In this document: one piece after another, positions 45,592-50,238 of the stretch | Position numbering within the stretch: the first letter of the stretch is position 1 | How the letters are laid out: every line of letters begins with the position of its first letter | Assembly (NCBI GenBank): GCA_903907995.1 | Contig: CAIVQH010000031.1 | Location: forward strand, 1 to 64,000 | From: an uncultured Verrucomicrobiota bacterium | GTDB lineage: Bacteria > Verrucomicrobiota > Verrucomicrobiia > Limisphaerales > UBA9464 | Reading direction: 5' to 3' | DNA length: 64,000 nucleotides | Program-made: the position numbers and the translations under genes | Notes under the pieces: generated by a model | The model's input: only the letters and a program-made list of their open reading frames with translations | What the model was told of the DNA's origin: nothing | Database searches by the model: none

Positions 45592-47076
45592 CTACTCGAC
45601 CGCCGGCGGCAGGCGCAGGGTCGCATCCAGCGGTGGCATGTCCGGCAACTCCTTGGACGTGTTTGCAATGCCGAGCTTTTGCAGGCGTTCCCCCGAGGGT
45701 CTCACGCGTGACTCATAGCTGCCGACCGCCTGGTTGAAGGCCTTGTTGGCAGACTCCAGGCCGCCGCGAATGTTCTCGAGATATTTGGCGAACACGACGA
45801 CGCGCTCAAAAAGCTCCTGCGCCGCCGTCGCGATCTTCTGCGCGTTTTCCGTCTGCGACTGGTGCTGCCAGCTGACGGAGACCGACCGCAACAGCGCGAT
45901 CAAGGAGGCCGGCGTGGCGAGCAAAATCCGTCGCTCCGCCGCCCACACAATGAGATTGGGATCACCTTCCAGCGCCGCGCTGAAGAGGGATTCTGCCGGC
46001 AGGAACAGCACCACATAATCCAACGCGTTGGAAAATGCCTTAGGATAATCGCGGTCCGCCAGTTCCTTGATGGTGTCACGCAATTTCTTCGCATGTGCCG
46101 CCAGCGCGTCCGCCCGCTTGGTCCCGTCGGCCTCGTTGAGGGCGTTCAGGAAATCGAGGTCGGGCACCTTGGAATCCACGATGATGAAGCGGTCGCCCGG
46201 CAGCTTCACAATGAGATCCGGCTTGCGGTCCCCTTCCTGCACCTGCTCGGTGAAATCGCAGTGCGCGCTGAGTCCCGCCGCCTCGACCACGCGCCGCAGC
46301 GTTTCCTCGCCCCAGCGCCCGCGTGCCTGGTTGCTCGACAGCACCACGCGCAACCGCTGCGTCTCGCCCGAAAGCGTCAGACTTTGCGCCGCCAGCCCGT
46401 CCAGCTGCTGCTTCACCTGCCCCAGCACATCGGTCTGCTGGGCCTCGGCCTGCTGCAACCGCTGCTGGTAGGCCCGCAACTGCTCCTCCAGCGGCTTCAC
46501 CAGCGCCGCGACGCTCTCCTGCCGCTGCGCCAGATCGCCCGAGGCCGTGGCCTGAAACTTGGCAAACGTCTCGTTGGCCAGCCGCAGAAACTCCGGGGTG
46601 TTCGCGCTGAGGGCCTCGGCGGCCAGCGCCTTGAACTGATCGCGCAGCACCTGCAGCGCCCGGTCGTTTGCGGCGCGCAGTTCCACAAGCTGCTCGGCGC
46701 GCTTCTGCGCGTCCGCCCGCGCCACGGCCAGCTCTGTGTCCTGGCTGGCCAGCCGTTCCCTTACGCTGGTGAGCTGCTGCCCCGCAGCCGCCGCCTCCAT
46801 GGTCCGCGCGGACGCCAGCTGTTCCGCCGCGCTCCGGCTGGCTTCCGCCGCCGCCTTGGCCGCGCCGGCCTCGGAGGCGGCGGCACGGATGGAAATCAGT
46901 TCCGTTTCGCGCGCCGCGAGTTGCGTGCGCAGCTCGCTTTCGACCCGGGTGTCCGGCACGCCCTTTTTCAGGGCGCGCAACAACCAGCCTAGCACAACTC
47001 CGATCAGGAGTCCGAGCACGATGCAGACGATGCGTTCAACCAGCACGTCCTGAGTGACGGTCGGGGCCAATGCCAT
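45592..47076 (-). CDS. rmuC: DNA recombination protein RmuC
   Basis: 494 residues from the ATG at 47076. An N-terminal membrane anchor (IVCIVLGLLIGVVLGWLL) is followed by a long coiled coil rich in Ala/Gln/Glu (about 40-220). The PD-(D/E)XK nuclease-like RmuC domain follows: QARGRWGEETLRRVVEAAGL, PDLIVKLPGDRFIIVDSKVP, DYVVLFLPAESLFSAAL, ILLATPASLIALLRSV and VGSYESRVRPSGERL. RmuC limits inversions and other rearrangements at short inverted repeats in E. coli, which is notable next to a genome segment full of such repeats. Monocistronic as far as visible. Confidence 0.9.
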   Translation of the reverse strand: MALAPTVTQDVLVERIVCIVLGLLIGVVLGWLLRALKKGVPDTRVESELRTQLAARETELISIRAAASEAGAAKAAAEASRSAAEQLASARTMEAAAAGQQLTSVRERLASQDTELAVARADAQKRAEQLVELRAANDRALQVLRDQFKALAAEALSANTPEFLRLANETFAKFQATASGDLAQRQESVAALVKPLEEQLRAYQQRLQQAEAQQTDVLGQVKQQLDGLAAQSLTLSGETQRLRVVLSSNQARGRWGEETLRRVVEAAGLSAHCDFTEQVQEGDRKPDLIVKLPGDRFIIVDSKVPDLDFLNALNEADGTKRADALAAHAKKLRDTIKELADRDYPKAFSNALDYVVLFLPAESLFSAALEGDPNLIVWAAERRILLATPASLIALLRSVSVSWQHQSQTENAQKIATAAQELFERVVVFAKYLENIRGGLESANKAFNQAVGSYESRVRPSGERLQKLGIANTSKELPDMPPLDATLRLPPAVE

Positions 47077-47231
47077 CGCAATGCAAAAGTTCGCGTGCTG
47101 AAAACTGGACGGCGTTGTCTTGGTTGAACGCCGTTGAGCCGTCCCGGTCTGAGCACAGCCACCCGAAAATCCAGCTCGCCAGCCGGAGTCCGGGCTGGCC
47201 GTAATCACACTGATCTAACTAGGAGTCTGAT

Positions 47232-49730
47232 ATGTCGTTAACCAGCCGCCTTCTTCCCGTGGTGACTTTATGCGTCGGTGTCACGGCCGGCGTGGTGATG
47301 ACTCGCAAATCAGCATCTTCCCTACCGGCCGCCCCGTCCATTCAGGGCAGCACCAACCTGACAGAAGGCAGCCCGAAGTCCGGCACCAAACCCGCGCCGC
47401 CCGCGACCTTTGCCATGATGGCGGCGGAGATTGAGGCCCGGATGCGCAAGGCCATGGCGGCGCCGGGAAACCGGCGTTGGCGCCTGATGCAGCAGCTGGT
47501 GTTGCAGTTGCGGCCGGAGGAATTCGCCGCCGCGCTGGCGGCCGCCGAGCGATTGCCCCGGAACGAACGGTATAATTTTCGATCCCAAATCCTGGAACGC
47601 TGGGCCGAGGTGGATCCGCAGGCGGTGCTGGCGCAGGCCGACACCACAAAAAACCGCTGGGAACGGCAGAACGCGCGAAGCAGCGCCCTGCGCGAATGGG
47701 GGCGCACCGATGTGGACGCCGCCATGCAGTGGGCCCGCGATCACTCGACGGGCAGCGAGCAGCGCCAGCTCATCGCCGCCGCCATCGGCGGGCTCGCACA
47801 GAGCGATCCCGACCGCGCCTTGAAACTCATGGAGGCATTGCCCCCGGGACAGCAACGGACGGTGCGCCAGAGCGTCGTGTCAGCCCTGGCGGAGATTGAT
47901 CCCTCGCGCGCCGCCGATCTGGCGCTGAAATATGCGCGTTCGTCCCGTTACGGCTACGGTGGACCGGATGAGAGCCAGCTGGGCGAAGTGCTCGGCACCT
48001 GGATGCGCAAGGATTCCGCCGGCGCGCTCGCCTGGCTCCAAGGCCAGCCGGAATCCGTCCGTCGGAAACAGGCGGTGCTACAGGCCATCGAACAGGCAGC
48101 CGGCTCCGCGCCCGAGGCCGCGCTGCAGATGGTGGGGTTGCTTCCGGCCGGCCAGAAGCGCGACGAAGCCCTCGGTAATGTTCTCCGCCAACTCGCCGAT
48201 TCGGATGCCGATGCCATGCAGCGCTGGCTGATCGCGCAACCGGAAGGCAAGGACCGCACCCGTGGTCAGATCGCCCTGGCCGGCAGCCTGGTGGCGACCG
48301 ATCCGCTGCGGGCGACGCAACTGCTCCAGAATCTCAAGGGCCTCAGCAACAACGACCGCTGGGCCTTCCAAAACGTGGCGCGCGAATATGCCCAGCGTGA
48401 TCCCCAGGCCGCCCTCGCCTGGGCGCAATCGCTCACCGACGTGCAGTCGCGTGATCAGGCCGTCAATGGCGCCCTCGCCGGCTGGGCGGGGGACAAGCCC
48501 GAGGAGGCCGCCAGTTTCGCGCTGGGCCTCCCTTCCGGGCGGGCCAAAAACCAGGCCATCGCCCAGCTCGCCCAGGCCTGGGCCGAAGCCGATCCGGAGG
48601 CGGCCTTGTCGTGGTTGAAACAGGTGCCGAACGTGACCGCGCAGCGCGAGGCGATGCAGCAGATCATCTGGAACGTCGCCCAATCCCGCCCCGATCTCGC
48701 CGCGGATGTCATCAGTTCGATGCCGAACGGCCAGACCCAGCTCGACAGCTATCGCCAGCTGGCCGAACGCTGGGCGGATTCGGATCCCGACGCCGCCGTC
48801 GAATGGGCACGCGGGCTGAAGGACACCAAAAGCCGGGACGAGGCCCTAAAAGCCCTCTCCTGGCGCTGGGCCGATACGGATGCCAAAGGCGCGGCCGAAT
48901 ATGCGCGCGATCTCCCTCCCGGAGAACTGCGGACGCAGCTGCTCACTTCGGCCGCCGGACAATGGGCCTGGAAGGACCCCAAGGAAGCCGCCGATTTCGC
49001 CCTGTCACTGCCGGCCGACGCTTCCCGTCAGAGCCTCCTGGAAAACATCGCCTCCGGCTGGAGCGGCCAGGATCCCAAAGCCGCCGCCGAATTTGCCGCC
49101 AAGCTCCCCGCCGGGGCGGCGCAGGATGCCGTCTATAAGCGAGTCGCGGGGGCCTGGGCGAACCAGGACCCGCAGGATGCCCTGAACTGGGCCAACTCGC
49201 TGACCTCCACCAGCGCGCGGTCGGGCGCCTTGGAAAGTGTGCTGGCTGTCTGGGCCCGACAATCGCCGCAGGATGCCGCCGCCTATGTGTCCCAGCTGCA
49301 GGCCGGCGCCGGCCTCGAGGGCGGCGTGAAGTCCGTGGTGGCCGGGCTGGCCGCCACCGATCCCGCCTATGCCGCGAAGTGGGTGGATCAGTTTCCGGCA
49401 GGCCAGATGCGCGATGACGCCCAAAATGCCATCATCGGCCGCTGGGCGGGCGATGACGCCGCCGCCGCCGCTGCGTGGCTGAACACGCTGCCCGACGGCA
49501 AAGGCCGCCAGGACGCCGTGGAGACTTTTGTAAATCAGGTAACCAGCCAGCAGCCCGACCTCGCCTGGGCGTGGGCTTCGACGCTGACGAGCCCGGACCT
49601 GCGCGACCGCGCCCTCGAAAACTCCGCGAAAAACTGGCTCAAGGTGGATGAAACGGCCGCCCGGGCGGCCATCGACCAGTCGGGCCTGCCGGACGACGTC
49701 AAAAAACGGCTGCTCCAACCTGGTGGTTAA
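47232..49730 (+). CDS. Exported or anchored protein of about 22 tandem helical repeats
   Basis: 832 residues with a strong ribosome-binding site (AGGAG 47221-47225, six bases before ATG). The N-terminus has one hydrophobic segment (LLPVVTLCVGVTAGVVM), a signal anchor or signal peptide. The rest is about 22 repeats of 32-33 residues, each running approximately W-A-x-x-D-P-x-x-A-x-x-W-A-x-x-L-P-x-G-x-x-R-x-x-A. Examples are WADSDPDAAVEWARGL, WAWKDPKEAADFALSLPA and WANQDPQDALNWANSL. The two-helix unit predicts an alpha-solenoid similar in shape to TPR/Sel1/HEAT arrays but with its own signature. I do not recognise a named family. A periplasmic scaffold or binding role is a reasonable guess only. 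Confidence 0.85.
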   Translation: MSLTSRLLPVVTLCVGVTAGVVMTRKSASSLPAAPSIQGSTNLTEGSPKSGTKPAPPATFAMMAAEIEARMRKAMAAPGNRRWRLMQQLVLQLRPEEFAAALAAAERLPRNERYNFRSQILERWAEVDPQAVLAQADTTKNRWERQNARSSALREWGRTDVDAAMQWARDHSTGSEQRQLIAAAIGGLAQSDPDRALKLMEALPPGQQRTVRQSVVSALAEIDPSRAADLALKYARSSRYGYGGPDESQLGEVLGTWMRKDSAGALAWLQGQPESVRRKQAVLQAIEQAAGSAPEAALQMVGLLPAGQKRDEALGNVLRQLADSDADAMQRWLIAQPEGKDRTRGQIALAGSLVATDPLRATQLLQNLKGLSNNDRWAFQNVAREYAQRDPQAALAWAQSLTDVQSRDQAVNGALAGWAGDKPEEAASFALGLPSGRAKNQAIAQLAQAWAEADPEAALSWLKQVPNVTAQREAMQQIIWNVAQSRPDLAADVISSMPNGQTQLDSYRQLAERWADSDPDAAVEWARGLKDTKSRDEALKALSWRWADTDAKGAAEYARDLPPGELRTQLLTSAAGQWAWKDPKEAADFALSLPADASRQSLLENIASGWSGQDPKAAAEFAAKLPAGAAQDAVYKRVAGAWANQDPQDALNWANSLTSTSARSGALESVLAVWARQSPQDAAAYVSQLQAGAGLEGGVKSVVAGLAATDPAYAAKWVDQFPAGQMRDDAQNAIIGRWAGDDAAAAAAWLNTLPDGKGRQDAVETFVNQVTSQQPDLAWAWASTLTSPDLRDRALENSAKNWLKVDETAARAAIDQSGLPDDVKKRLLQPGG

Positions 49731-49944: not shown

Positions 49945-50238
49945 ATGAAAACTACCTGCGTCATTGTGCCTTGGCCTCAAGGCCTCCACCTCCGCCCAGC
50001 CGCCCGCCTCGCCCGTATGGCCCAGGGGTTCAGTTCAAACATTCATCTGCAGTTCGATTCCATGGTCGCCGACGCCCGCAGCGCCTTGAGCCTCCTCCTG
50101 CTCAGCGCCAGCCCAGGAACGACCCTGAATCTGAGCGTGGTCGGGGAGGATGAGCATGAGGCCATGGCCGCTTTGGAACATTTCTTTTCCGGGCCGGAAA
50201 CCGAAGAGCCGGAAGAACAGCCAGGCAAGACTGCCTAA
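49945..50238 (+). CDS. HPr-like phosphocarrier protein
   Basis: 97 residues. GLHLRPAARLARMAQ contains the phospho-acceptor His at residue 15 with the canonical Gly-Leu-His-X-Arg-Pro context. Residue 46, in ADARSALSLLLL, is a serine at the regulatory site phosphorylated by HPr kinase. The ending DEHEAMAALEHFF is the usual last helix, followed by an acidic 15-residue tail not found in classical HPr. It would pass phosphate from enzyme I to PTS or regulatory targets. No enzyme I, EII or HPr kinase is in this window. It is separated from the solenoid gene by 214 bp with no recognisable gene. Confidence 0.87.
   Translation: MKTTCVIVPWPQGLHLRPAARLARMAQGFSSNIHLQFDSMVADARSALSLLLLSASPGTTLNLSVVGEDEHEAMAALEHFFSGPETEEPEEQPGKTA

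Follow-up and report, generated by a model that had tools for sequence, protein, structure and literature searches.

What kind of protein is made by a long array of one short helical motif, and what may such a protein do? The question is raised by an open reading frame (ORF) at positions 47232 to 49730 of a 64,000-nucleotide stretch of contig CAIVQH010000031.1 (assembly GCA_903907995.1), from an uncultured Verrucomicrobiota bacterium. This whole stretch is called the window here, and the product of the ORF the window protein. An earlier note on the window had proposed the ORF, and its position, strand and frame were all correct; it had also described a tandem helical repeat with a signature of its own behind an N-terminal hydrophobic segment, and we recovered both the signature and the anchor as described. 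The reading that we favour, at about even chances, is that the window protein is an inner-membrane-anchored extracytoplasmic alpha-solenoid that serves as a docking scaffold for protein-protein contacts.

A 32-residue repeat behind a hydrophobic segment

Residues 76-832 were aligned to themselves at lags 5 to 99 and compared with 200 shuffles. The autocorrelation peaked at lag 32 (z 18.0), lag 64 (z 16.6) and lag 96 (z 11.9); the next best lag had z 2.8. These peaks set the unit length at 32 residues. A profile scan placed 19 gap-free 32-residue units between residues 124 and 801, and two units are over-length, one of 37 residues (220-256) and one of 33 (353-385). The signature reads W1-A2-x-x-D5-P6-x-x-A9-x-x-W12-A13-x-x-L16-P17-x-G19-x-x-R22. 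On the AlphaFold2 model about 23 hairpins were counted, made up of the 19 gap-free and the two over-length units, one further unit at the N-terminus and half a unit at the C-terminus. The earlier estimate had been about 22 repeats of 32-33 residues.

The N-terminal anchor has a hydropathy of 2.29 across 17 residues starting at residue 7. The sole cysteine of the protein, C14, lies within it, and none occurs beyond. A lipoprotein was considered and rejected, as the residues before this single cysteine do not form a lipobox.

Run on the window protein together with its full-length, 96% identical counterpart (L042), AlphaFold2 predicted helices only after residue 57, with a mean pLDDT of 77 and a pTM of 0.39. 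The prediction for a three-unit block (96 residues), made from an alignment with eleven further blocks of this size from the window protein and its counterpart, was all helical, with a pLDDT of 92.4 and a pTM of 0.80. In whole-protein and block models alike, two helices fuse into one at 532-559. The models thus support the local hairpins well and the overall superhelix less so. Structure prediction, which the earlier note had proposed as a check, returned an all-helical solenoid, and by its 32-residue period, its roughly 23 hairpins and the lack of strands in the models the window protein is a predicted alpha-solenoid.

An old array outside the catalogued families

No Pfam or NCBIfam family was found above its cut-off in the window protein. 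The Pfam models for TPR, Sel1, HEAT and PPR were not listed for it up to E 10, in a listing whose filters discard most matches above 0.1. When alignment A1 (18 chosen members, window protein included) was scanned, only one member listed any model of these four kinds (TPR_16, E 0.031). At the level of Pfam profiles the earlier claim that the pattern is none of the four is borne out, and no single repeat of the window protein gave a significant match to a known solenoid family, the finding that would have spoken against it. NCBIfam gave stray matches only over the 18 members; the best of these, to Avd, was seen in two of them (E 0.0095; 16.2 bits, where the cut-off is 80) and was taken as chance. 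Matches in the PDB were likewise not credible, whether by sequence (best E 0.29), by the A1 profile (best E 0.0073, 48 positions of a flavocytochrome haem subunit) or by the A4 profile (best E 0.054, a designed protein). In the literature covered, most of it non-subscription, no publication was recognised as treating this repeat.

From structure comparison no fold family is assigned to the repeat. Foldseek returned karyopherins and SF3B1-type spliceosome chains for the whole model. VIA-align 2 ranked PPR10 first, with Z values of 14.6 and 14.4 (next row 10.8), slightly above the level that this program deems common among helical repeats, and with a root-mean-square deviation (rmsd) of 25-26 over 516-533 residues. 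For the three-unit block the best Foldseek E was 0.32. The top VIA-align 2 rows for the block included a CDI complex chain (5t87, ranked first; Z 8.4, rmsd 2.8, 88 aligned), AP2 (Z 7.2, rmsd 2.9, 85 aligned) and the PP2A scaffold (Z 6.9, rmsd 3.0, 86 aligned), and Z values of this size are common among helical repeats generally. Many of the top rows for the block are alpha-solenoids of the HEAT/ARM/alphaRep type. Neither HEAT, TPR nor any other single solenoid family was prominent in the Foldseek and VIA-align 2 results, except PPR10 at its high rmsd.

Like the HEAT/ARM/alphaRep-type solenoids, the window repeat is predicted to consist of two-helix units stacked into a superhelix, but its 32-residue unit pairs a short helix with a long one and bears a W/DP/LPxG/R signature, and no Pfam HEAT or ARM model was listed. 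PPR units are 35 residues long; the window protein differs from them in unit length and signature and has no PPR profile match. TPR and Sel1 are helical hairpins with a unit length near that of the window repeat, yet the signature is different and neither model was listed. The repeat family is real, ancient and uncatalogued, yet belongs to a known kind, the alpha-solenoid repeats. No Pfam or NCBIfam model describes the repeat in the 18 members, and a profile of it would annotate many proteins currently without a family.

The age of the array was read from units at the same position in different proteins. When the units of the window protein are set beside those of seven closer relatives, identity at the same position is 0.39-0.45; it is 0.25-0.26 between other positions and 0.25 between units within the protein. 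The register was taken from a MAFFT alignment, which somewhat favours the same-position values. Of 17-19 units, 8-14 had their best match at the same position. Another alignment (A2), of overlapping fragments, did no more than superpose identical stretches and was left out. In nine more distant relatives this positional signal fades (identity 0.26-0.35; same position best for 1-8 of 13-19 units). Since same-position identity exceeds identity within the protein, the array predates the split of the closer relatives. Tandem Repeats Finder found no DNA tandem repeat of unit length, only a 15-base triplet run. Judged from these comparisons, the array is old and a recent internal duplication, as had been suggested earlier, is unsupported. 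The observation behind that suggestion, that central repeats are the most alike, roughly holds (adjacent pairs 514-610 at 0.34-0.41, 642/674 at 0.38, most others at 0.12-0.31), but recency does not follow from it.

Among six chosen relatives the signature positions and the C-terminal cap are conserved. The cap has a mean pairwise identity of 0.54 and unit 386 of 0.55, and other units range from 0.32 to 0.49. Non-signature positions are poorly conserved (0.17-0.42, mostly 0.2-0.3), with somewhat better values of 0.35-0.38 in units 386, 738 and 770. Where the frame is kept and the surface changes fast, differing or changing partners would be expected rather than a conserved catalytic or small-ligand site, and the pattern suggests that the variable positions face outward.

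The earlier proposal to look for the same repeat across the Verrucomicrobiota was followed up. Within the order, 40 of 58 genomes have matches at E<=1e-3, and in a sample of 288 genomes from the whole phylum at least 66 have matches at E<=1e-5, own genome included in both; at most three candidates per genome were scored for the phylum, so that the latter count is a lower bound. Relatives uncut by contig ends are mostly 670-930 residues long with 13-21 detected units, and the array is kept across the order. Within the genus, two of the seven other genomes match (G003, 96% identical over the full length, and G005, with a 401-residue frame), and two of the five genomes without a match are at least 95% complete. 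This patchy presence makes the window gene look accessory. Neither the 72,556 plasmid records nor the 50,697 phage records searched held a match; these were the sole searches made beyond the phylum, and they leave a restriction to this lineage unproved. A search of the own genome for the signature as a DNA pattern was uninformative: it gave 3 + 5 matches, some of them overlapping and none at the window gene, and the reversed pattern gave 3 + 2.

The repeat is abundant in two genera of family f26 and in one genome of family f25, where the figures are matches and not genes: 51 in G308, 45 in G235, 18 in G311 and 26 in G229. Several repeat genes are paired with a 4-base overlap (for example at L100, L103 and L105).

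Sigma factor fusions and the place of the solenoid

The most useful functional lead comes from relatives in which the repeat is joined to a sigma factor. Six distinct extracytoplasmic function (ECF) sigma factors, all from family f26, have repeat-related C-terminal extensions, and in five of the six (not L146) the gene directly after encodes another repeat protein that starts with a hydrophobic stretch. They were first seen as N-terminal Sigma70_r2/r4 matches in L110, L120 and L107 in Pfam scans of long neighbours and members, and their number was raised to six by a Sigma70_r2 search of six genomes and the fetching of long sigma ORFs. They stand among 17 distinct sigma ORFs of at least 300 residues found by a sigma profile, in regions picked for long ORFs or repeats, so that the share is not a frequency.

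The extensions were compared with the repeat profile and, by BLASTP, with 30 repeat proteins, the BLASTP E-values applying to that small set. The extensions of L147 (profile 5e-9, BLASTP 4.5e-37, window protein 1.5e-13) and L107 (5.5e-8, 6e-31 and 1.1e-12) matched throughout. That of L141 had no profile match, a BLASTP match of 2e-29 and one to the window protein of 6.7e-5. L146 (profile 0.011, BLASTP 3.5e-8) and L120 (no profile match, BLASTP 7e-6) did not match the window protein, which was the sole BLASTP match of L110 (profile 0.3, BLASTP 8e-4). The sigma extensions of L144, L133 and L139 had no BLASTP match among the 30. In L110, L120, L146 and L147 the sigma part is succeeded by a transmembrane segment. 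The window protein itself has no sigma domain in Pfam, such fusions being seen only in the six relatives.

A helical repeat behind an ECF sigma factor has a known parallel in the ECF42 sigma factors, which have a C-terminal TPR extension. In that group the extension has been proposed to work through protein interaction (PMC8999054). The relatives differ from ECF42 in the repeat itself, which follows a membrane segment in four of six cases and has an adjacent second repeat gene in five of six. At least 48 Sigma70_r2 matches were found in the window's genome, and at least 48 to 50 in three of six genomes; if the repeats receive envelope signals, they would explain some of these large sets of sigma factors.

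Long ECF sigma factors with other extensions were seen in the own genome. One is joined to an FKBP-type isomerase and has a predicted membrane segment (L136:2211-3587), and one carries TPR repeats and has no predicted membrane segment (L140:1424-2992). Three more (L133:1660-3336, L135:1213-2853 and L139:1773-3254) have a predicted membrane segment and extensions of about 230-330 residues without any Pfam match.

Of the 79 repeat ORFs examined, 73 have a hydrophobic N-terminal segment when judged by a crude threshold. Their flank charges point to N-in/C-out in 41 of the 73 and to the opposite in 14, with 18 ties.

In the reading that we favour, the N-terminal segment would anchor the window protein in the inner membrane and a flexible linker would keep a superhelix of about 23 two-helix units off the membrane. 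Each unit would consist of a short helix, DPxxAxxWAxxL, and a long helix, GxxRxxAL...WA, in which the signature residues would form the core and the variable positions the binding surface. In relatives from another family the repeat forms the C-terminal extension both of ECF sigma factors and of the anchored partners encoded beside them, so that the repeat module overall is most likely engaged at the envelope in receiving protein-binding events or passing them on. Counted in support of a scaffold are the 32-residue repeat, the hairpin models, the anchor, the lack of cysteine after residue 14, the kept array, the sigma fusions and the hydrolase genes (6 of 17) described below among upstream neighbours. 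A broader extension, which we regard as doubtful, would make the uncatalogued, phylum-level module an extracytoplasmic interaction code of its own, in which, in some lineages, a copy fused through the membrane to an ECF sigma factor pairs with an anchored solenoid encoded beside it and so controls transcription, and the long stand-alone members, the window protein among them, serve as scaffolds.

Several points weigh against the scaffold reading. The non-signature positions are so variable that no defined binding groove is visible. The neighbours of the window gene, an RmuC and an HPr-like gene, are neither sigma nor hydrolase genes. The flank charges of the window protein itself are undecided, with 1 before and 2 after the segment. 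Among the fusions, the sequence evidence is weak for L110 and L120. The transmembrane segment is missing in L141 and marginal in L107, which argues against one fixed topology. In the own genome, none of seven long sigma ORFs, found by profile in eight fetched regions, carries the repeat.

The fusions also raise the idea that the window protein is the receptor half of a sigma signalling pair, sensing an extracytoplasmic cue and signalling to a sigma factor encoded elsewhere. The six fusions, with a second repeat gene adjoining five of them, would fit such a pair, as would the many Sigma70_r2 matches of the own genome, several of them in long ORFs for which a membrane segment is predicted. We consider it unlikely all the same, as the flanking genes are not sigma genes, each neighbour family is confined to at most 4 of 23 loci, and the seven own-genome sigma ORFs just mentioned do not match the repeat profile, with L133 and L139 lacking a BLASTP match too. 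The window protein is likelier a stand-alone scaffold than a sigma partner.

The anchor could also be read the other way round, as N-out/C-in, with the solenoid acting as a scaffold at the inner face of the membrane. The RK immediately after the hydrophobic segment, the 14 of 73 relatives with the more positive flank after it, and the fusion L141, which has no membrane segment and whose repeats would thus be cytoplasmic, are consistent with this placement. With 41 of 73 relatives having the more positive flank before the segment, a mature part free of cysteine and a linker rich in Ser, Thr, Pro and Ala and of low model confidence after the anchor, a cytoplasm-facing solenoid seems improbable, and an extracytoplasmic one is what we favour.

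Upstream genes suggest a third role. Annotated genes directly upstream of repeat genes on the same strand in the expanded families comprise 2 sulfatases, 2 GH76 proteins, 2 amidases, one borderline acetyl xylan esterase-like protein, one L,D-transpeptidase and nine others; these 17 come from 40 loci (L093-L132), and 7 were picked partly for recurrence, so that the share of hydrolases is not a frequency. Hydrolase genes stand directly upstream of repeat genes at L093, L097 and L153 (GH76), L094 and L099 (sulfatase) and L109 and L115 (amidase). The window protein might accordingly be a partner or chaperone that holds or matures exported hydrolases in the envelope. Such placements speak in its favour, together with GH76 matches adjoining a repeat gene (two of the five in G308; one of the four in G235, where 67 bases separate it from the repeat ORF) and an own-genome paralog two genes 3' of a phospholipase C gene. 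We think this role quite unlikely: the window gene has no such neighbour, G311 and G229 carry repeat genes but no GH76 match, and the rest of the annotated upstream genes belong to unrelated kinds (beta-CASP nuclease, SSF transporter, TatD, NDH2-like, BadF/GKRP, DUF7133/cytochrome c, BPD permease and others).

The single paralog in the own genome (L012; C37) is 42% identical to the window protein and follows genes for a phospholipase C and a SnoaL-like protein on one strand (L012:3764-9248). The same gene clusters flank its counterpart L052 in G003.

A last comparison concerns the Pfam family ELYS (PF13934). The window protein sums to 24 bits against a cut-off of 28.8, and no stretch of it passes even E 10. 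The model matches 13 of 18 A1 members at E<=0.1 (best 1e-12), the summed scores of L012 and L052 (47.9 and 48.8 bits) are above the cut-off, and among six genomes 3 match at E<=0.01, 1 above the cut-off with its neighbours, against 0 of 14 control genomes. These matches might point to a distant homolog of the alpha-helical domain of the nucleoporin ELYS, akin to the idea of PVC membrane-coat-like proteins, but such kinship is very improbable, because no lone stretch passes E 0.001 in ten A1 proteins re-examined, the E-values grow by summing weak repeats, the window protein stays below the cut-off, the predicted models have no beta-strand, and DUF4214 (in L057, slightly above its cut-off at 24.2 against 23.2 bits) and FliG_M (4 of 18 A1 members, best E 0.0013) are touched likewise. 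Another relative, L059 (4427-6994), likewise exceeds the ELYS cut-off, with 34.8 bits against 28.8 and two stretches passing E 1, and counts on the side of kinship. We read these matches as the accumulated weak resemblance to be expected of a repetitive Ala/Leu/Trp helix pattern.

The PVC membrane-coat-like proteins share with the window protein the alpha-solenoid kind. They comprise alpha-solenoid (SPAH) proteins from Planctomycetes, Verrucomicrobia and Lentisphaerae, and their defining trait is a beta-propeller at the N-terminus (PMC2799638). The window protein appears to have no such propeller, as its model holds no strands and residues 1-57 are too short for one, and on the predicted structure it does not belong with them.

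Features and neighbouring genes

Table 1. Parts of the window protein, adjoining genes, and sigma-repeat fusions of relatives. Positions are those of the window except where a locus is named.
Feature	Residues	Position	Strand	Basis or remark
Repeat-protein gene	832 residues	47232..49730	+	ORF, ATG at 47232, stop at 49730
N-terminal hydrophobic anchor	1-25	47232..47306	+	One hydrophobic segment, then RK
Ser/Thr/Pro/Ala-rich linker	26-57	47307..47402	+	Low model confidence; pLDDT <50 over residues 1-57
N-terminal helices, ahead of first hairpin	58-92	47403..47507	+	AlphaFold2 model
About 23 helical hairpins	93-828	47508..49715	+	Autocorrelation, profile scan, AlphaFold2 models
Starts of gap-free 32-residue units	124, 156, 188, 257, 289, 321, 386, 418, 450, 482			
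Starts of gap-free 32-residue units, continued	514, 546, 578, 610, 642, 674, 706, 738, 770			
C-terminal cap, WLKVDETAARAAI...RLL	802-832	49635..49727	+	Among the best-conserved stretches (identity; alignment A1)
RmuC-family protein gene, divergent neighbour, outside the feature		45592..47208	-	PF02646, E 2.4e-84
HPr-like phosphocarrier gene, downstream neighbour, outside the feature		49945..50238	+	PF00381, E 2.7e-21
Sigma-repeat fusions by genome		G308: L107 (same locus as L145), L110, L141; G311: L120; G235: L146, L147		
Fusion with directly following repeat gene		L110:1383-4558; L120:3530-6852; L107:2568-5689; L141:2159-5361; L147:1599-4804		

A conserved neighbour, for which the earlier note had suggested a search, did not emerge, since no neighbour family exceeded the 4 loci given above and the upstream genes were assorted; the 23 loci include near-identical pairs and three loci of other families, with genes called as longest ORFs. 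Between 47050 and 50300 a pattern scan showed no promoter of the sigma-70 type, and terminator-like sites were no commoner there than in shuffles. An AGGAG stands at 47221-47225, a short distance 5' of the ATG.

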